A stretch of 54,328 nucleotides of DNA from Oscillospiraceae bacterium (GTDB lineage Bacteria > Bacillota > Clostridia > Oscillospirales > Acutalibacteraceae): the NCBI GenBank assembly GCA_015066345.1, contig SVOQ01000018.1:1-54328 (forward strand), read 5' to 3'. The notes beneath the pieces were generated by a model that made no database searches, had not been told where the DNA came from, and saw nothing but the letters and a program-made list of their open reading frames with translations. How positions within the stretch are numbered: position 1 is the first letter of the stretch; each line of letters begins with the position of its first letter. Made by a program: the position numbers and the translations under genes. Below, piece by piece: positions 1,786-29,903 of this stretch.

Positions 1786-2964
1786 TTACTGTACAACTTC
1801 GAAACTACCGAGCATTGAACGGAAGAATCTCATAAAGATAGCGAAGATTTTTTCAAAGTAGTATGAGAAAGTATAGTCAAACTCACTTCTGTCGTTACCG
1901 AGACCTGAATTATCATCAAGTGCAAGTTCGTTTGCTGTAAGGTTATATGTTGAATATTCCCAAGGATTTTCCTCGTTGATTTCGATAACACGAGCACCCT
2001 GAATCATACCCTGATAGTATGAAGAGTATGTGCAACCGGGAGTCATAATAAGGTCAATACCGTTACAATCTACAACAAAGTTATTAACGTGGTCGTGACC
2101 AACAACGAGACCGAGAACATCTCCGCCTTCTACCAAAGCATCCCACTGACCGTCGTTACCGTAGCTGGGGCAGCTCTTTTCGAAAAGATAGCCGTCATAC
2201 TTTGTAACATCGGGGATGAATGTTTTACTTGTACCGTCCTGGAAGTTAATAGTAAGGTCGCCCATATTAACAGATGACTGAGTGAAAATCATCTCTGTGG
2301 GTTCCTGAGGAATAATGTGCTGGAAAGCAATTGAGGGAACGAGTTCGCCACCGTTTTCTTCGGTCATTGCGTCACGTGTAGTTTTATACCATTCAATCTG
2401 GTCTTCACGAACCCAGTCATAGCCGAGCCATTCGCCCTTTGAATTGTACACATAGTCACCACAGTCAAACATCCAGAAATTGAATGCGATTTTAGAACCG
2501 TCACTTGAAAGAACGGGAAGGTTGTGAGTACCTGCACCGTGGAGTGAGGGATCTGCATCATAAACGAGACAATTCTCGTAAGAAGCATATCTTTCGATAA
2601 TTTCATCCCTTGTAAGACCGCCTGAGCTTTCTTCGTCGTGGTTACCGAGAACTGCAGTATAAGGAACGCCTGTTCTATCGAGAGCACCGAAAATCTCATC
2701 GTATGCTTCTACTTCTTCAGTGTTGATATTATCACCACAAAGAACAATCAAATCAGGTTGAGCAAAGTCAACGGATTCATAAATAAATGTAATCATATCG
2801 TCAGGTATGGGATAATCCGTCTGAATATCCGCAAGAACCATAACTTTGAAGTTACCGTTCTCATCAAACTGAAGAACTGCTTCTTCTTTGAAACCTGCAA
2901 ATGAAACACTTGCAACAGAAAATACCATTACAACTGCAAGTAAGATTGCTAAAATCTTTTTCAT
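1786..2964 (-). CDS. Secreted calcineurin-like metallophosphoesterase
   Basis: A 392-residue exported phosphoesterase. Residues 1-23 are a clear Sec signal peptide ending SVSFA. The metallophosphoesterase blocks follow in order: LADIQ (about 44-48), LCGDN, LGNHDEE, FQHI and GHDHVNN, which supply the two-metal site. The first block reads D-x-Q where most members have D-x-H, so one metal ligand is altered. The last ~25 residues are hydrophobic and aromatic-rich, a tail that might associate with the surface. The substrate is unknown; a phosphomonoester or diester outside the cell is the family expectation. It is monocistronic, with its own promoter inside the 3' end of murD and its own terminator. 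Confidence 0.85.
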   Translation of the reverse strand: MKKILAILLAVVMVFSVASVSFAGFKEEAVLQFDENGNFKVMVLADIQTDYPIPDDMITFIYESVDFAQPDLIVLCGDNINTEEVEAYDEIFGALDRTGVPYTAVLGNHDEESSGGLTRDEIIERYASYENCLVYDADPSLHGAGTHNLPVLSSDGSKIAFNFWMFDCGDYVYNSKGEWLGYDWVREDQIEWYKTTRDAMTEENGGELVPSIAFQHIIPQEPTEMIFTQSSVNMGDLTINFQDGTSKTFIPDVTKYDGYLFEKSCPSYGNDGQWDALVEGGDVLGLVVGHDHVNNFVVDCNGIDLIMTPGCTYSSYYQGMIQGARVIEINEENPWEYSTYNLTANELALDDNSGLGNDRSEFDYTFSYYFEKIFAIFMRFFRSMLGSFEVVQ

Positions 2965-3001
2965 AACTATTTCTCCTTAGAAATATTTTTTGTTAACTAA
3001 T

Positions 3002-3030
3002 ATTATACAACTATGACTTTATTTTGTCAA
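3002..3030 (-). promoter_or_regulatory. Consensus sigma-A promoter inside the end of murD
   Basis: On the minus strand TTGACA (3030-3025), a 17-base spacer and TATAAT (3007-3002) match the consensus perfectly. The -35 box lies inside the last codons of murD, so the metallophosphoesterase gene is probably transcribed independently of murD. Confidence 0.8.
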
Positions 3031-4344
3031 ATCTAAAACAAGTTTTTTGAAATGTCTTCCTTTTTCTTCAAAGTTTTTATAATAATTATAACTTGCCGCC
3101 GCAGGAGAAAATAAACAAGATTTACCTTTTTCGGTAAATTCATCCGCTTTTTTTACCGCATCCTCCATATCGGTAGCACAAATCATATTTTTATTGCAAC
3201 CGCGTTTCTTTAATTCCTCAATTATCGTATGACCTGTTTCAGGTAAGCCAATAAGGTTATTAACACCGTTTTTCTCAAGGAAATCAATAAAATCCTTGTA
3301 GTCTATACCTCTGTCAAGACCGCCGAAAATATGCGTATCCACATTACCGATAGCCTTTACCGCACCCATAACCGCTGTGGGAATTGTTGCGATACTGTCG
3401 TTATAGTAGGAAACTCCGTTTATTACACCCATATATTCCATACGGTGTTCAATTCCGCCGAAATTCTCTACTGCGTGTCTTACCGCATCATCACTCACAC
3501 CGAAAATCCTTGCGACCGCAAGGGCGTAGGCGATATCCTGTCGGTTGTGTTCACCTTTAAGATGCTCGGTGGAATTCCACAATTCGTTTACAAAAGCATC
3601 TTCCGAAGCACCCGTAAAAGTCACGGGTACACCCTGCCCTTTTAAAACCTTGCTCCAGTCCACAACACCCTCAAGATTTTGTTCAGGGTTATAGATAAGG
3701 AAATCGTCCTTTTTCTGATGTAAGGCGATGTTCAGTTTAGCACCAACATAACCATCAAAGCCCGTTTTATAATGGTCAAGATGCTCCTCATAAATATTTA
3801 CAATAACTGCAACGTGGGGTGAAGATGTAGTAAACTCAAGTTGGTGTGATGACATTTCGATAACCGCTACAAGGTCATTACCCTCATCCGCTTTTTCAAA
3901 AACAGGTACACCTATATTACCTATAAGGCAGGTGTTAACTCCACCCGCTTTAAGCATTTCGTAAATAAGAGTGGATGTGGTGGTTTTCCCCTTTGAACCC
4001 GTAATACCCACAACCGTAGGTTCACAAAACCTTAAAAACATATCGGTCTGACAAGTAATTTCGGTGGTTTCGGGGTACATATCATCCTCAAGAAATGCGA
4101 TACCGGGACTTTTGAAAACTATATCAAAATCCCCAAGGCAATCAAGATAATTTTCACCGTAAATTATATTAATATTTTCATCCTCAATATGGGGTTTGTT
4201 TCTGTCCCCTATTGTTAACATCTTTTCGGGAAGATGCTTTCTCAAGTAATTGTAGGTGGACTTACCCTCTCTGCCGAAGCCGAGAATGAGAATTTTTTTA
4301 TCCTTTACATAATCAATTATTCCGCACACAGTAATCATCTCCAT
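3019..4344 (-). CDS. murD: UDP-N-acetylmuramoylalanine--D-glutamate ligase
   Basis: MurD adds D-glutamate to UDP-MurNAc-L-Ala in the cytosol, using ATP, during peptidoglycan precursor synthesis. The N-terminal Rossmann region has ILGFGREGKST, the central domain has the ATP loop GITGSKGKTTT (about 113-123), and further blocks are EMSSHQLE, NIYEEHLDHY and GEHNRQDIAYA. At 441 residues the length is typical. The start could be ATG 4344 or ATG 4338; neither has a strong ribosome binding site. It is divergent from smsCB and is not in a dcw cluster here, which is unusual but seen in some Clostridia. Confidence 0.95.
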   Translation of the reverse strand: MEMITVCGIIDYVKDKKILILGFGREGKSTYNYLRKHLPEKMLTIGDRNKPHIEDENINIIYGENYLDCLGDFDIVFKSPGIAFLEDDMYPETTEITCQTDMFLRFCEPTVVGITGSKGKTTTSTLIYEMLKAGGVNTCLIGNIGVPVFEKADEGNDLVAVIEMSSHQLEFTTSSPHVAVIVNIYEEHLDHYKTGFDGYVGAKLNIALHQKKDDFLIYNPEQNLEGVVDWSKVLKGQGVPVTFTGASEDAFVNELWNSTEHLKGEHNRQDIAYALAVARIFGVSDDAVRHAVENFGGIEHRMEYMGVINGVSYYNDSIATIPTAVMGAVKAIGNVDTHIFGGLDRGIDYKDFIDFLEKNGVNNLIGLPETGHTIIEELKKRGCNKNMICATDMEDAVKKADEFTEKGKSCLFSPAAASYNYYKNFEEKGRHFKKLVLDLTK

Positions 4345-4367
4345 AGCGGTCGTTATTTTTCTTTAAT

Positions 4368-4442
4368 ATCATATCATAAATCAATTACTATAACAAGGAT
4401 TTTTGAAAAACACTTGAATAAATGCACTTATTTGTATATAAT
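4368..4442. promoter_or_regulatory. Divergent promoters of murD and smsCB
   Basis: Minus strand: TTGTTA (4396-4391), 17 bases, TATGAT (4373-4368) for murD. Plus strand: TTGAAT (4414-4419), 17 bases, TATAAT (4437-4442) for the smsC operon. Just after the latter, AACTATATAGTAGTT (about 4454-4468) is an imperfect inverted repeat near the expected transcription start; an Fe-S-sensing regulator such as an Rrf2 protein could bind it, but that is speculation. Confidence 0.6.
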
Positions 4443-4493
4443 CTAAAATTGAACAACTATATAGTAGTTAAATATATAATACCGGAGAAATTT

Positions 4494-5210
4494 ATGCTTG
4501 AACTAAAAAATATTTCTTTTAACGTTGCCGACGAAAAAGGCGAAAAAGATATTATTACCGATGTTTCACTTACAGTTGAAGACGGTAAATTTCTTGTAAT
4601 AACAGGACCAAATGGCGGTGGTAAATCAACCCTCGCGAAGCTCATTATGGGTATCGAAAAACCCACAGGCGGTCAGATTATATGGAATGGCGTGGATATT
4701 ACAAATATGTCCATTACGGAACGTGCTAAATTAGGCATAGGCTACGCCTTTCAGCACCCTCCCCGTTTTAAAGGACTTTCCGTGCGTGACCTTTTGAGTC
4801 TTGCCCACGGTAGTGACCTTCCCGAGGATCAGTGTTGTGCTTATTTAACACAGGTTGGTCTTTGCTCAAAGGACTATCTTAACCGTCAGGTGGATTCATC
4901 ACTCTCAGGCGGTGAAATAAAGAGAATTGAAATCGCAACCCTTATGGCAAGAAACCTTGAACTGGCAATTTACGACGAGCCTGAAGCGGGTATTGACCTT
5001 TGGAGTTTCAATATGCTCGTTGAGAGTTTCAAGGCAATTACAAAAACCCGTAAGGAAAGTATGGTAATAATTTCTCATCAGGAAAGAATTATGAAAATTG
5101 CCGACGAAATAGCCATTATTGCCAACGGAGTAGTAAAAAAGAAAGGTCCGGCGGAGGAAGTTTTCCCCGAACTTATGGCAGAATTTGACAACACTTGCTC
5201 ATTCAGATAA
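4494..5210 (+). CDS. smsC: SufC-like Fe-S assembly ATPase of a minimal SMS system
   Basis: A cytosolic ABC-type ATPase that powers Fe-S cluster assembly on its SufB-like partner. It shows Walker A GPNGGGKST (about 38-46), the signature LSGGE (about 137) and Walker B LAIYDEPEAGID, and it has no membrane domain, as in SufC. The frame is open for 24 codons upstream, but GGAG at 4484-4487 fixes the start at ATG 4494, giving 238 residues. The next gene is a single SufB/D-like scaffold. There is no sufS, sufU or separate sufD nearby, the layout known as SMS (SUF-like minimal system), homologous to Methanocaldococcus MJ0035/MJ0034. Confidence 0.9.
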   Translation: MLELKNISFNVADEKGEKDIITDVSLTVEDGKFLVITGPNGGGKSTLAKLIMGIEKPTGGQIIWNGVDITNMSITERAKLGIGYAFQHPPRFKGLSVRDLLSLAHGSDLPEDQCCAYLTQVGLCSKDYLNRQVDSSLSGGEIKRIEIATLMARNLELAIYDEPEAGIDLWSFNMLVESFKAITKTRKESMVIISHQERIMKIADEIAIIANGVVKKKGPAEEVFPELMAEFDNTCSFR

Positions 5211-5224
5211 AGGAAACAATATTT

Positions 5225-6142
5225 ATGAATAATACAGAACTTCATATGCTTGAGGCGGTTGCCGACCTTCACAGCGTTCCTCAGGGTGCATATAACATCA
5301 GAAAAAATGGTGAAGGTGCAGGTAGACAATCTACTGCAAATATCATTATAGAACCTAAAAAGGACAAGCCCGGTATTGACATCATAGTTAAACCCGGTAC
5401 TAAAAATGAAAGTGTTCATATCCCCGTTATCATCACCCAGTCGGGTGTTGAGGACTTGGTTTACAATGACTTTTTCATCGGTGATGACGCGGATGTGCTT
5501 ATAGTTGCGGGTTGCGGTATTCACAACTCAGGCGATACCAAAAGCGAACACGACGGCATTCACCGTTTCCATATAGGTAAAAACGCACGTATCAAATATG
5601 TTGAAAAGCATTACGGTGAGGGCGAAGGCACGGGCGAAAGAATCCTTAACCCCGTAACAGAAATATTTATGGACGAAAATTCATACTGTGAAATGGAATC
5701 CGTACAAATCCGTGGCGTTGACTCAACTAAGAGGGATACTACCGCAAAACTCGAAAAGGGTGCAAGACTTGTTATCCTTGAAAAACTTATGACCCACGGT
5801 AATCAGGTAGCTCATTCGGATATGGTAATTGAACTTAACGGTGACGGTGCATCATCACAGATTATCTCCCGTTCCGTTGCTAAGGATAATTCGGAGCAGG
5901 TCTTCTATCCCCGTGCAGTGGGTAACGCACCTTGCAAAGCCCACGTACAGTGCGACTCCATTATTATGGACAACGCAAAAATCCGTTCAATTCCCGAAAT
6001 TGCCGCAAATCATTGGGATGCTAACATCATCCACGAAGCGGCTATCGGAAGAATCAACAACGACCAGTTATTGAAACTTCAGACAATGGGTAAAACAGAA
6101 CAGGAAGCAGAAGAAATCATCATTAACTGTTTCCTTAAATAA
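5225..6142 (+). CDS. smsB: SufB/SufD-like scaffold of a minimal SMS Fe-S assembly system
   Basis: Scaffold partner of the preceding ATPase, expected to form an SmsC2B2 complex that builds Fe-S clusters in the cytosol. The C-terminal beta-helix region has the SufB/D blocks APCKAHVQCDS, IRSIPEI and HEAAIGRINNDQL, with a conserved His and Cys residues typical of SufB-type scaffolds. At 305 residues it is much shorter than SufB of the full SUF operon (~470), as expected for SmsB. The start is ATG 5225, after AAGGA; it lies 14 bases past smsC. No dedicated cysteine desulfurase is adjacent, so sulfur probably comes from elsewhere. Confidence 0.88.
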   Translation: MNNTELHMLEAVADLHSVPQGAYNIRKNGEGAGRQSTANIIIEPKKDKPGIDIIVKPGTKNESVHIPVIITQSGVEDLVYNDFFIGDDADVLIVAGCGIHNSGDTKSEHDGIHRFHIGKNARIKYVEKHYGEGEGTGERILNPVTEIFMDENSYCEMESVQIRGVDSTKRDTTAKLEKGARLVILEKLMTHGNQVAHSDMVIELNGDGASSQIISRSVAKDNSEQVFYPRAVGNAPCKAHVQCDSIIMDNAKIRSIPEIAANHWDANIIHEAAIGRINNDQLLKLQTMGKTEQEAEEIIINCFLK

Positions 6143-22230: not shown

Positions 22231-22674
22231 GCGAAGCTCTATCATCCCTGTGCGTAAGCATAGGGAGGGGGACCGCCTTTTGTCAAGTTCTTTCTAAGAT
22301 TTATTTTCAAACGAGCGATACTTTATGCATTATCTGTTTGGTTCAGCGGAGCGGTGGTGGGTAGTTCTCTTTCGGTTAGTCTCCTGTTACAGAGAACAAC
22401 AAACTCCCGTAAGGGACGGATATATCCGTCCCGCAAGTAAGGAAAACAAACTCCCGTAAGGGACGGATACATCCGTCCCGCAAGTAAGGAAAACAAACTA
22501 TCCTAACCAACAAACCAAAAGGATGTCCGTTACCTCAGCGGTACGCATATATGCGTACCTTACGGTTGTTCTCTCTAACTGAAGAAAAGAGGTAAGAGAA
22601 CTACCCACCACCGCTACCGCGGTCCCCCTCCCTATTCCGGCAAAGCCGAAACAGGGATGATAGGCTTCGCTGAG
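22231..22674. repeat. Gene-free block made of two inverted copies of a hairpin-rich repeat
   Basis: Left copy (22231 to about 22437) and right copy (about 22525-22670) are imperfect inverted repeats of one another. Shared blocks, in left orientation, are CTATCATCCCTGT, ATAGGGAGGGGGACCGC, GCGGTGGTGGGTAGTTCTCT and AGAGAACAAC. The left copy has about 70 extra bases (near 22276-22345). Inner hairpins differ between copies but stay paired: the loop region is GCGTAAGC in one and TTCGGC-TTT-GCCGGAA in the other. Three 20-bp palindromes lie inside, at 22413-22432, 22460-22479 and 22540-22559. It is probably a dispersed, non-autonomous palindromic repeat. No gene is visible. Confidence 0.75.
22398..22491. 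repeat. Two tandem 47-bp units, each with a 20-bp palindrome
   Basis: Units 22398-22444 and 22445-22491 differ at a single base (T to C at the centre of the palindrome); the first eight bases of a third unit follow. Each unit holds GGGACGGAT..ATCCGTCCC. Near identity points to a recent duplication or active turnover. Confidence 0.9.
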
Positions 22675-22676
22675 AT

Positions 22677-25160
22677 TTAAGTTGCGAGATTTATCCACAA
22701 AGCGGGGCGGACAGCATCGTCAACGTAGTCGACAACGAAGCCGTACTTAATGACGCCGCCGTCATTGAGGACAGCGGCAGCATCAAACTGACTGCGGCCG
22801 GACGACCGTAGCCACCACCAGCAGTTGCCGATTTCACTTTCCCAAGCACCATTTGCAACTGCATAATTCGTAGGTTGGCAAGCTCTTTCGTCGTCCGATG
22901 AAAAATATTCATTCGCTTCGTTTATGCTTAAAACGAAAACCCTATCTTCCGTATCATTACCCGGGTCTGTGCTGTATTCTGGGTTTTCATCCGCCGTAAC
23001 GGTTACTGTGGGTATCATAGCCTTTTCCTCTTCTGTGAAGGCAGCATTAATAAACTCATCATTCAACCAACTTCTTAAAGTACAGGTTTCCCATGTAACA
23101 TACTCGTATTCTTCGTTGTAGGGCTTACAATCGAGAGCATACTTACTAATAACAAGAATTTGAGTGCCCTGTTTATCAAGGATAAGCCATTCTATTGCTT
23201 CTTTGCCGTTTGACGTGTCGTTATCCTGTTCGTAGCTACCAAAGGTATATATATCACCCACGTTTGTATTCTTAATTATATTCCAATTTTCTTCACCGTA
23301 TAGTGATATATTGCAATCTTCTATTTTTTCGCTACTATCTTTGTAATCTTCAAGTTCCTCAAGTACGGTAATTGCTTCCTCATACTTTCCTTCTTCAATT
23401 AATTTGAGTGCATTGTTATATTTACCTGCAGGGATTATAACCGAATCTAAGACTACCGCAAATACAATCGCTACACATACAACTACCGCTACCGCTGCAG
23501 ATGTTATCTTGATTATCAAACTGCGTTTCTTCTGCTTCTGTCTTTCAAGCTCTGCAAGGCGTTCACGCTCACGCTTTTCCTCGGCAATTTTTTGATTAAG
23601 CTCGTTAATAATTTCGCTGCACTTCTGTGCTTTTTCGTCTGCATCACGCCAACCGGGAATGGAGCCGAAAAGCTTCAATGATTTTTCAAATACGTGTATA
23701 CATTTGTTTGCGATTAAATCCTGAAAGCTTGTTCCGAAAACAGAATTCGCATTTTTATAAATTTCTTCTTTTTTGAGTATCTCTGCTCTTTCGTGGCATT
23801 TATTATAAAGTTCCTCGGAATCCTTATAGTTTTTTATAGCTTCAAACCGCTCCGCAGCTTCAAGAAGAAGCTCCGGTGAATCGGTGTTGTTTAATACATT
23901 AAGTGCCGACTTATAAATGCCCTCAAGTTTTTGTTTTTCGTTGCGTTGGGAAATAAAATTAAGATAACCGATTATTTCGGATTTAAGACCCTCGTCGGCA
24001 AATCTTAAAGCCTTTTGGCAATTGCTATTTTCATTAAAGGTCTTTGGAAGATTTTTAAGCTCATCCTGCTTTTTTACGTACAAATCTGCCATCAATTTAC
24101 CAAGATATGCACGGGCGTTTTCCGGTTCGATATTTAAAACCTGCTCGCAGAATTCGTCGGCACGTTCGAAGTCGCCGTCCTCAAGGAACATAAAGGCTCG
24201 CTTTAAAAGAGGGGCAGTATTAGCGTTTCCGCCACTAATTACCGTTTCTTTGACAACGGGCTTTTCCGCCTCTATAAGCTTACCTATACCCCTCATTAAA
24301 TCCTGCATAAAGCCGATTTTTGACATATCCTGTGACTGCAGGAACTGAAACTCCTCGGGCATATCGTAGGGTGTAATATCCTTATAAACGGGGATAAGTG
24401 TTTTTTCCTTGCCCTGCTTTATAAGGCTTAAATATCTGCTCCACTCGTTTTTAACCCATACGGCATTGAAATTTTCTTTGGATGTACCCACAACAAGCAT
24501 AACCTTCGCGGAGTTAAGGGCGGCAAATATGTAAGGCTCGTAGGCTGAACCCAATTTATCCTCAAGGGTGATTTTGGCAAAGAATACCTTATACCCCTCC
24601 TTGGTAAGTGCGGTATAGATATTCTGTGCGTAAACGCTGTCCTGAGTTCTGTTGCCCAAAGCATCGGTTTCTTTATAGCAGATGAAAATATCGAAGGGCT
24701 CTTCCCTTTGTGAAATGGCAAGAATACCCCTTTGAATTTTATCAATTACCCTTGCTTCTGCCTCGTAAACCTCTTTTTGCATATCATCCGCATAATTAAC
24801 GGCATTTTTGTAATCCTCATCCTCAAAAACCGAGGTAAACTGAGCACGGTTCACCGTGGGAATACGCTTATGGCTACGGGGGTCCTCTACGTACTCGATA
24901 CCGTAACGGCAAAGTACAATACCCCAATAGCTTTCGCAATCCTCTTTATCGTCGCTGAGTATCATTTCGTAAATACCCATCGCCTTATCAAACTCGTTTT
25001 CACGACGGAAATAGTTTGCTCTGTCATAAAGCTGAGTGCGTTTTTCATCAGAAAGCTTGGGGAAGGTCTGCGTTGTGTTGCAATAAGGACAAACACCCAC
25101 GGACAAACTCTCGTTAATTTCCAACGTGCCGCCGCACATTTTACATTTAAAAACTGCCAT
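22677..25160 (-). CDS. Zinc-ribbon/TIR/TPR membrane protein with a DUF6273 C-terminal domain (candidate DGR target)
   Basis: An 827-residue predicted single-pass receptor, type II in orientation. Order of parts: zinc ribbon (Cys6, Cys9, Cys24, Cys27); TIR domain about 155-280 (FDIFICYKETD; candidate catalytic Glu208 in GSAYEPYIFAALNSA); TPR-like helices about 315-480; a charged coiled coil; one membrane helix about 546-573 preceded by QKQKKR, which puts the N-terminus in the cytosol; a short TPR; and a DUF6273 C-type-lectin-like domain (633-827) with TWETCTLRSWLN, WWWLRSSG and VRPALWINL. ATG 25160 follows GAGGG. TIR domains often cleave NAD or build cyclic ADPR signals; the outer domain should bind a ligand. 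It has no partner genes beside it. Confidence 0.8.
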   Translation of the reverse strand: MAVFKCKMCGGTLEINESLSVGVCPYCNTTQTFPKLSDEKRTQLYDRANYFRRENEFDKAMGIYEMILSDDKEDCESYWGIVLCRYGIEYVEDPRSHKRIPTVNRAQFTSVFEDEDYKNAVNYADDMQKEVYEAEARVIDKIQRGILAISQREEPFDIFICYKETDALGNRTQDSVYAQNIYTALTKEGYKVFFAKITLEDKLGSAYEPYIFAALNSAKVMLVVGTSKENFNAVWVKNEWSRYLSLIKQGKEKTLIPVYKDITPYDMPEEFQFLQSQDMSKIGFMQDLMRGIGKLIEAEKPVVKETVISGGNANTAPLLKRAFMFLEDGDFERADEFCEQVLNIEPENARAYLGKLMADLYVKKQDELKNLPKTFNENSNCQKALRFADEGLKSEIIGYLNFISQRNEKQKLEGIYKSALNVLNNTDSPELLLEAAERFEAIKNYKDSEELYNKCHERAEILKKEEIYKNANSVFGTSFQDLIANKCIHVFEKSLKLFGSIPGWRDADEKAQKCSEIINELNQKIAEEKRERERLAELERQKQKKRSLIIKITSAAVAVVVCVAIVFAVVLDSVIIPAGKYNNALKLIEEGKYEEAITVLEELEDYKDSSEKIEDCNISLYGEENWNIIKNTNVGDIYTFGSYEQDNDTSNGKEAIEWLILDKQGTQILVISKYALDCKPYNEEYEYVTWETCTLRSWLNDEFINAAFTEEEKAMIPTVTVTADENPEYSTDPGNDTEDRVFVLSINEANEYFSSDDERACQPTNYAVANGAWESEIGNCWWWLRSSGRSQFDAAAVLNDGGVIKYGFVVDYVDDAVRPALWINLAT
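22707..22820 (-). other. Putative DGR variable region at the 3' end of the TIR gene
   Basis: In the 33 codons from the glycine after LRSS through the alanine of VRPA, 31 end in C or T and none ends in A, and base composition is clearly richer in GC than the codons before it. A retroelement template full of AAC/AAT codons that had been adenine-mutagenised would give this pattern; observed codons such as CGC, AGT, TTT, GAT, CTC, GTC, ATT and TAC can all arise from AAY. Invariant positions (DG, VRPAL) match the C-type-lectin fold used by DGR targets. The unmutated VRPALW end would be the initiation site. No reverse transcriptase or template repeat is in the window. Confidence 0.65.
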
Positions 25161-25270
25161 TTTTTCCCTCTTTATTTGCACAAATATACAGATTAATTAT
25201 CTTATTTTTTACTGTCGTTTTCCATTCGCATTTGCAACAAAATTTAAGGTTGTTTTTTGACAAACAAAAA

Positions 25271-28523: not shown

Positions 28524-29903
28524 ATGGAACTTTCAGAATATTTTATTACTCAATGCCGTGCTATGGGTGTCATTTTACGCAGTACCTCTCCCAATATCAA
28601 AAAACTCGTTTCGGGTAAAAAGGGCAAGGACCAAGTAGGAATTGCGGCAACTTATAATTTCAATAAATTCAGTTTACGCATAATTTACACCGAGCAAGGC
28701 AGAAACGCTTACGCCCAACAGTCAATATGGCTCACTTTTTCTCTGGATGATGAGCCTACTCTCCCCTTTTCGGTGTATGATATTCTCGCGTTTTGCGAGC
28801 CCTCAAACTTTAACTGCTACACTTACACCTATGTGGATTCAAAAGAACTTATGCAGGATTGTTTCGGTGAAATAACGGGACTTTTACTTAACCTTATTCC
28901 CGGGCTTAACCAATTACTTGAAAATGGTGTTGAGAAAAATCGTCTTATAACATCACAAAAAGAAAGCATAAACCGTTATTTCGGTGATAATGTTATCGAA
29001 AGCAGCGAGATGTTAGGTGCAACGGGTGACAAAATTTTTAACCTTATGCTTAAAAATTACTTTGATGCACAGATAGAATGTGCCGTCATAGGCTCTCAGT
29101 CACTTTTTTACGAGGGCAAAACCGAAAAAGCTCTTAAAAAACTGAAAAAATCAAAATTCCGCACCCAATACCACGAAAATCTTATTAAATACCTTGAGAA
29201 TGGCGGTAAACCACTTAAGGAAAATGAAGTTATAAAAGAGGCTTCTATAAAAAAAGGCTCAAGCCGTCACGGTGGCGGAATTAAGGGTATGCTGAAGTAC
29301 GGTGCATTTTCACTTCTTTTTACTCTCGCTATTTCAATTATAGCCATTCCCCTTTATTACGGCTTATGTATGTTGGTTTTCAGAGATAGTTTTTATGTTA
29401 TGGGGCTTTTAGAAAACATTGTCTTATTTCCTGCTTTTTGCGTTTTACCCGGTTGTGCAATTGCAATACATTTACTTAAACGCAACAAAAAAGTCAAAAA
29501 GAATGACTCTCAGAAAGTTCACTCTCCAAAACTCAATTCCGCTACACTTATGTTTATAAAGTGTTTCACCATATTAGCTGAATGTCTGCTTATTTTAAGT
29601 TTTGTTACATGCCTTAATTCCACTACGGTTTTTTACGAAAACTCATTTAAATACTCTGAGGAAGATTTCCCCTTATCCCAAAATGAGTGTCAATATGATG
29701 TAATTGACTATTTCGCCATAGTTGATGGTTACGAAATCGACGGTGAATTTCAAAAAGACCCCCATATAGTAGCCGTTACCACAAGCGGTACAAAAATTGA
29801 TTTATATAATTCATCGTGTTTTTCAACAGAAGATTTCAAAGAAAAAACTGAAACTTTTTTAACCGAAAAAGGCATTGAAATAAAAAATGTAAAAACTATA
29901 TAA
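28524..29903 (+). CDS. Uncharacterised membrane protein
   Basis: I do not recognise a family. The 459-residue protein has a soluble N-terminal half (about 1-250) with mixed alpha/beta composition, a basic linker (KKGSSRHGGG), then two membrane helices (about 256-310), a basic loop, a third helix (about 343-366), and a C-terminal part (about 370-459) likely outside the cell. The N-terminal part has an amphipathic helical stretch with a KALKKLKKSKF segment that resembles a TPR-like helix. AAAGGAAA lies before the ATG. It is a single-gene transcript between two divergent/convergent minus-strand operons. Confidence 0.75.
   Translation: MELSEYFITQCRAMGVILRSTSPNIKKLVSGKKGKDQVGIAATYNFNKFSLRIIYTEQGRNAYAQQSIWLTFSLDDEPTLPFSVYDILAFCEPSNFNCYTYTYVDSKELMQDCFGEITGLLLNLIPGLNQLLENGVEKNRLITSQKESINRYFGDNVIESSEMLGATGDKIFNLMLKNYFDAQIECAVIGSQSLFYEGKTEKALKKLKKSKFRTQYHENLIKYLENGGKPLKENEVIKEASIKKGSSRHGGGIKGMLKYGAFSLLFTLAISIIAIPLYYGLCMLVFRDSFYVMGLLENIVLFPAFCVLPGCAIAIHLLKRNKKVKKNDSQKVHSPKLNSATLMFIKCFTILAECLLILSFVTCLNSTTVFYENSFKYSEEDFPLSQNECQYDVIDYFAIVDGYEIDGEFQKDPHIVAVTTSGTKIDLYNSSCFSTEDFKEKTETFLTEKGIEIKNVKTI

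Follow-up and report, generated by a model that had tools for sequence, protein, structure and literature searches.

A predicted membrane TIR receptor from an Oscillospiraceae bacterium with a lectin-fold tip resembling a retroelement-diversified variable region

A gene at 22677–25160 on the minus strand of a 54,328-nucleotide stretch of Oscillospiraceae DNA (contig SVOQ01000018.1, assembly GCA_015066345.1; this whole stretch is called the window below) probably encodes a single-pass membrane TIR receptor whose lectin tip is a variable region of the diversity-generating retroelement (DGR) type, with the corresponding machinery found beside a related gene, L175, and not in the window's own genome. 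The architecture of the receptor and the fingerprint of its variable region (VR) are read from the sequence, its lectin fold from a structural model and the retroelement cassette from relatives. Bacterial TIR domains start immune signalling, and DGRs make a patch on the tip of a lectin fold freely variable. A membrane protein combining the two would be a surface receptor with heritable, programmed diversity and innate-type signalling, and raises the testable question of anticipatory recognition at the bacterial cell surface and of its targets.

Domain architecture and topology of the receptor

The open reading frame is uninterrupted over 22677–25181 and gives 834 residues from a GTG at 25181; an ATG at 25160 (827 residues) agrees with the MAVFKCKMC start of homologues. 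Its parts follow in the order zinc ribbon, TPR, TIR_2, TPR, helix, short TPR-like linker and DUF6273. The four cysteines of the N-terminal CxxC...CxxC zinc ribbon (residues 10–41; 25059–25154) are invariant in a full-length alignment of 32 sequences, made up of the window protein and 31 of 33 open reading frames that carry both TIR and DUF6273 motifs. The TIR domain (PF13676; residues 165–287; 24321–24689) is matched by Pfam with E 1.3e-11 and 45.5 bits against a cut-off of 28, and its best sequence match in the PDB, a weak one (E 0.008), is TLR15/TLR2. The candidate catalytic residue E215 (24537–24539), which from its motif position and not from an alignment to any solved NADase we take to be the NADase glutamate of TIR domains, is a glutamate in 32/32 aligned sequences. 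TPR matches lie around residues 325–372 (24066–24209), and the C-terminal domain (residues 641–834; 22680–23261) is matched by DUF6273 at 674–831 (E 6.4e-28).

An AlphaFold model of this C-terminal domain shows a C-type-lectin fold (pLDDT 96.7), with structural matches first to one DUF6273 protein and then to a solved C-type lectin, the Treponema denticola protein TvpA (PDB 2y3c), which is known to be diversified by a retroelement. The VR, at residues 787–828 of 834 (22698–22823), lies inside this fold at the C-terminus.

Hydropathy reveals only one hydrophobic helix (residues 565–583; 23433–23489; mean hydropathy 3.0). Within 15 residues of the helix, lysine and arginine are more frequent on the N-terminal side in all 30 helix-bearing proteins among the 32 aligned, with mean counts of 6.8 against 1.7 on the C-terminal side. 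By the positive-inside rule, this makes it likely that the TIR domain is inside and the lectin domain outside. A sequence-only reading of the window had placed zinc ribbon, TIR, TPRs, one helix and DUF6273 in one protein, with a helix flank predicting TIR inside and a lectin-like C-terminal domain; Pfam, the cysteine columns, hydropathy, the charge excess and the structural model bear this out. The same TIR-helix-DUF6273 order recurs in the relatives, 30 of the 33 open reading frames having one helix.

A variable-region fingerprint in the lectin tip

Codons 787–828 look like a DGR VR. Within them, 32 of the 34 codons at 794–827 end in C or T (NNY codons), the highest count among 12,207 34-codon segments in 25 genes of the window; where the residue allows a choice of codon, the third base is C or T in 22/22 (13.5 expected; P 1e-5). 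The bounds of the VR are those of the homology between template repeat (TR) and VR in L175, 127 bases that correspond to residues 787–828 in the window's numbering.

Comparison with relatives shows that third bases in this core are kept while first and second bases diverge. Third-base identity to a gene from another genus (L113) is 0.91 within the core against 0.46 in the flank, whereas at positions 1 and 2 the core is lower than the flank (0.56 and 0.65 versus 0.75 and 0.80). For genes from other species, third-base identity is 0.94 in the core and 0.43 in the flank (L172 and one L174 gene), or 0.85 and 0.39 (the second L174 gene). It climbs from near residue 785 and drops near residue 829. 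A relative in another species of the genus (G263), split across two contig ends, differs from the window gene at the three codon positions by 13, 10 and 53 changes over residues 641–793, where the third position dominates, and by 17, 12 and 12 over residues 794–827, where the first and second together dominate (Fisher 3.5e-5; three of our four Fisher tests used counts rebuilt from rounded fractions). Since its neighbouring genes differ, this relative may be a paralogue.

The pattern extends across the family. Our search of genome contigs (genome_contigs) gave at least 549 relatives, of which the best 80 were kept, corresponding to 79 loci. A regular expression found 52 VR-like segments in the window and these loci, with none in 38 of the 80 sources; setting aside one segment that was too short, NNY codons are more frequent in the core than in the flank in 50 of 51 domains (medians 0.88 versus 0.54). 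In pairwise comparisons, third-base identity rises and first- and second-base identity falls in the core for 653 of 1170 pairs, which are not independent of one another. The alignment of C-termini comprised the window and 47 of the 48 listed. The window VR also differs from the L175 TR preferentially at adenines (21/36 mismatches, P 1e-4), consistent with a codon pattern set by template adenines.

That third bases are kept while first and second bases diverge, within the TR/VR bounds, argues for adenine-directed copying of a shared template; as judged from these sequence comparisons, neither selection alone nor recombination of the whole segment explains the pattern. An explanation by ordinary positive selection acting on a binding loop, together with a local preference for codons ending in C or T, would dispense with a DGR altogether. 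Such local variation in codon preference is possible, and we found no reverse transcriptase (RT) in the window's genome, but selection would not let first and second bases diverge between species and yet keep the third, nor stop at the TR/VR bounds, and the same protein family contains cis cassettes with adenine-only or nearly adenine-only mismatches. We regard this explanation as very improbable. Because third-position identity ends at the VR bounds, a gene of this kind would be recognisable even without its retroelement.

DGR cassettes beside related receptor genes

L175 shows that there is a TIR-TM-lectin receptor that has a DGR of its own: this contig of a metagenome-assembled genome (MAG), titled uncultured Eubacterium sp. 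(CAMFQI010000115.1), encodes a full-length relative of the window protein with 56% identity (334–2823), followed by an Avd-like gene (2958–3347; NF033474, 1.3e-13, below that model's cut-off), a TR (3405–3506) and an RT (3667–4761) that contains LGNQTSQ, the DGR-type motif. The L175 VR and TR differ at 21 positions, and 21/21 fall on TR adenines, which make up 34 of the 102 TR bases (P 3e-13). The template contains 14 AAY (Asn) codons.

Two less complete cassettes accompany it. L187 (DCHY01000046.1) has the layout of L175, with a run of N (an assembly gap or masking) over most of its VR (5600–5800), which is therefore unread; a further N run lies in the linker of its receptor gene. In genome G443 the cassette is split across two contigs and its Avd gene is truncated at both ends; the VR (L218) differs from the TR (L267) at 16 adenines and one other base.

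Using the L175 RT as a query against 45 genomes, including the window's, we obtained a match at 1e-10 in 11 and close, near-full-length matches in three (100, 87 and 72%). The L175 TR finds a TR in the genomes of L175, L187, L218 and G303; further matches in G418 and G453 were dismissed as templates because their adenines are already mutated, making them VRs. As a control, TR/VR pairs were recovered in 12 of 16 RT loci of the window's family. Another DGR of the family, L303 (G303:C11, 4917–9448), has TR and RT in cis with a target whose VR departs from the TR at adenines; this target is a YobI-ATPase/Tmn-like NTPase that combines two helices with DUF6273.

The sequence-only reading had proposed a DGR variable region at the C-terminus, and the codon fingerprint, the L175 cassette and the two less complete ones speak for it; its proposal that a retroelement acts in trans on the window copy was not borne out, as neither an RT nor a TR was found in the window's genome.

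The search for the writer of the window's VR

The assembled genome of the window (G000) is 98% complete. It yielded no RT of any kind, including with RT queries from a congener and from L175, and no DGR-type RT accompanied by Avd, the latter sought in the window only. Nor did this genome yield a template matching the VR except at adenines: BLAST of the VR returned the VR itself and two short matches, BLAST of the L175 TR returned only the window's own VR, and adenine-masked scans of the window and the fetched loci returned none. A 21-base match to the VR on contig C30 was rejected as a template, as it falls in what looks by eye like a dehydrogenase-like gene. Remnants of Avd, RT or TR were sought in the window with nothing convincing found.

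Mobile elements were searched as well. Among 50,697 phage records none matched at the DNA level, and protein matches to two records reached 41% and 29% identity; the viral_contigs collection held no match to the exact template pattern, and a DUF6273 protein query there returned five stretches, none of them relatives. The single plasmid match is a DUF6273 gene (L171, 10861–11604) on a plasmid record from Subdoligranulum (OY725851.1); its tip is rich in Asn and template-like, and no RT motif was seen in the open reading frames of this record.

Because no RT, template or adjoining remnant was found, the window's VR is best read as an orphan in a receptor class with other members that are DGR targets. 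Its writer may have been lost, may lie in unassembled sequence, or may be mobile or elsewhere. In one account, with close to an even chance of being right, this gene once had a DGR that has since disappeared, leaving the lectin tip as the frozen product of past variation, with no programmed variation now. This would fit the lack of RT and TR in a nearly complete assembly, and decay is seen elsewhere: L177/L268 retains a 63-residue C-terminal RT piece after a second target, and in L192/L269 fragments of Avd and RT are spread over several frames, with a piece of TR between them. However, the window holds no such remnant, and the agreement of third bases with two other species (94%) and with another genus (91%) suggests that a living template rewrote the VR recently.

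Alternatively, an RT and TR carried by a mobile element, or lying in the 2% that is unassembled, might still be rewriting this and other resident targets in trans, which we consider somewhat less likely than not. The window, L172, L174 and L113 have a common VR backbone in different flanks, G418 carries three VRs on a similar backbone, and remote targets are described for cyanobacterial DGRs (PMC7517822). Against this stand the phage and viral records without a DNA or exact-pattern match, the sole plasmid match being another DUF6273 gene without a visible RT, and the genomes of L172 and L174, which lack an L175-type RT at 1e-10. Third bases agree between species and with another genus in a way that the flanks do not; this speaks for a moving template as the writer of the window's orphan VR.

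Paralogues, relatives and neighbouring genes

DUF6273 was found once in the window's genome, which has six further genes with the zinc ribbon-TPR-TIR module joined to other C-termini (L015–L018; contigs C20, C44, C42 and C18): a transmembrane segment only, RCC1 repeats with or without a helix, MORN repeats, a Cys-rich end, or two helices (plain ends judged by eye). Some match to the window protein, often partial, is present in 19/22 genomes of the genus and 97/250 of the family. The 33 open reading frames with TIR and DUF6273 motifs come from 31 of the 79 loci. Record titles of the relatives are mostly MAGs named for Clostridia or its families, many from herbivore guts, and the title of one (L209) is Alistipes. 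Of 84 loci scanned, 35 contain an SPFH-motif gene (among L172–L250, for example L187 1405–2535), and the one checked is Band_7_1. At L189, TIR-DUF6273 genes stand in tandem and tblastn shows five VR-like tips; no RT was found at this locus, nor in its genome at 1e-10.

In the window, a 566-bp gap after the receptor gene's stop contains an imperfect palindrome of ~275 bp (22346–22620), resembling a miniature inverted-repeat transposable element, and the next gene beyond it appears recJ-like by eye. Elsewhere, a 459-residue protein encoded at 28524–29903 contains hydrophobic stretches and matches nothing in Pfam at E values up to 1.

Discussion

By mutagenic retrohoming, the known mechanism of DGRs, the RT would be expected to copy the TR with mutations at adenines and the cDNA to replace the VR, so that mainly the template's 14 AAY (Asn) codons would change while the fold and the TIR domain remain constant. 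The window's VR would have been written from a template with a backbone common to other species, and that template would now be lost, mobile or missing from the assembly. Binding of a ligand at the VR face might then cluster the receptor and activate the TIR domain, whose output would probably be NAD+ cleavage or a signal derived from NAD+, leading to a defence-like or contact response.

The immune or defence role, the ligand and the NADase activity are what we infer for the receptor. Defence is favoured, since the DGR target in L303 is a Tmn-like NTPase with DUF6273. PADLOC gives PDC-M62B as a weak best match of the window protein (E 0.0075), and for the L175 target PDC-S66 (8.3e-6) and ThsB (0.0012, over the TIR part). 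The receptor could instead serve attachment or the sensing of host glycans or neighbours, in which case the TIR domain would act as a scaffold or give a metabolic signal. Glycans are frequent ligands of surface lectins in gut bacteria, and the TIR module is also joined to RCC1, MORN and other C-termini; however, the TIR glutamate is invariant in 32/32 sequences, and the Tmn-like NTPase, of a type listed as defence, is the target of another DGR in the window's family. We consider such a non-defence role somewhat doubtful. As a tentative generalisation of the defence reading, gut Clostridia might use TIR surface receptors in programmed immunity, their tips rewritten by DGRs, some through trans templates crossing species and genera; if so, recognition repertoires would be exchanged independently of the receptor genes.

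Animal Toll-like receptors likewise have an outer recognition domain, one helix and an inner TIR domain. The window's protein differs in its lectin-fold ectodomain, DUF6273 in place of leucine-rich repeats, and in its apparent retroelement diversity, with no evidence of common receptor descent. Neither TvpA (2y3c) nor the Mtd protein of phage BPP-1 (1yu4, 1yu0) is known to carry a TIR, TPR or signalling module.

For the published systems that follow, the comparison draws on portions of the papers cited. DUF6273 DGR targets are described in gut phages, as tentaclins and in Faecalibacterium prophages (PMC10743442, PMC11792537), but these are phage proteins without TIR or a receptor helix, whereas the window's is a cellular membrane protein. 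The target of DGR 2 in Thiohalocapsa PB-PSB1 (PMC10907252) resembles it in uniting TIR with a DGR-diversified C-type lectin (CLec) domain in one protein, and differs in having CHAT and in being predicted to be cytoplasmic, not single-pass with TIR inside and lectin outside; the paper also has membrane-bound DGR targets, without TIR in the portions drawn on (PMC10907252). Cyanobacterial DGR variable proteins combine TIR-like and TPR domains with a C-terminal CLec domain and include remote targets (PMC7517822), but belong to another lineage and are mostly predicted to be cytosolic, a minority having a helix or signal peptide. The union of TIR and a DGR lectin in one protein, which the sequence-only reading had inferred for a transmembrane receptor, is not wholly new (PMC7517822, PMC10907252); its single-pass form, with TIR inside and lectin outside, was not found in our searches of open-access literature, outside of which lie most preprints and subscription papers. 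Among cellular DGR targets, an N-terminal helix with an outward lectin-type VR domain is common (Roux et al., PMC8144416), and a search of that text for the word TIR gave no hit. Relative to these membrane-anchored targets, the TIR signalling module is the addition in the window's protein.
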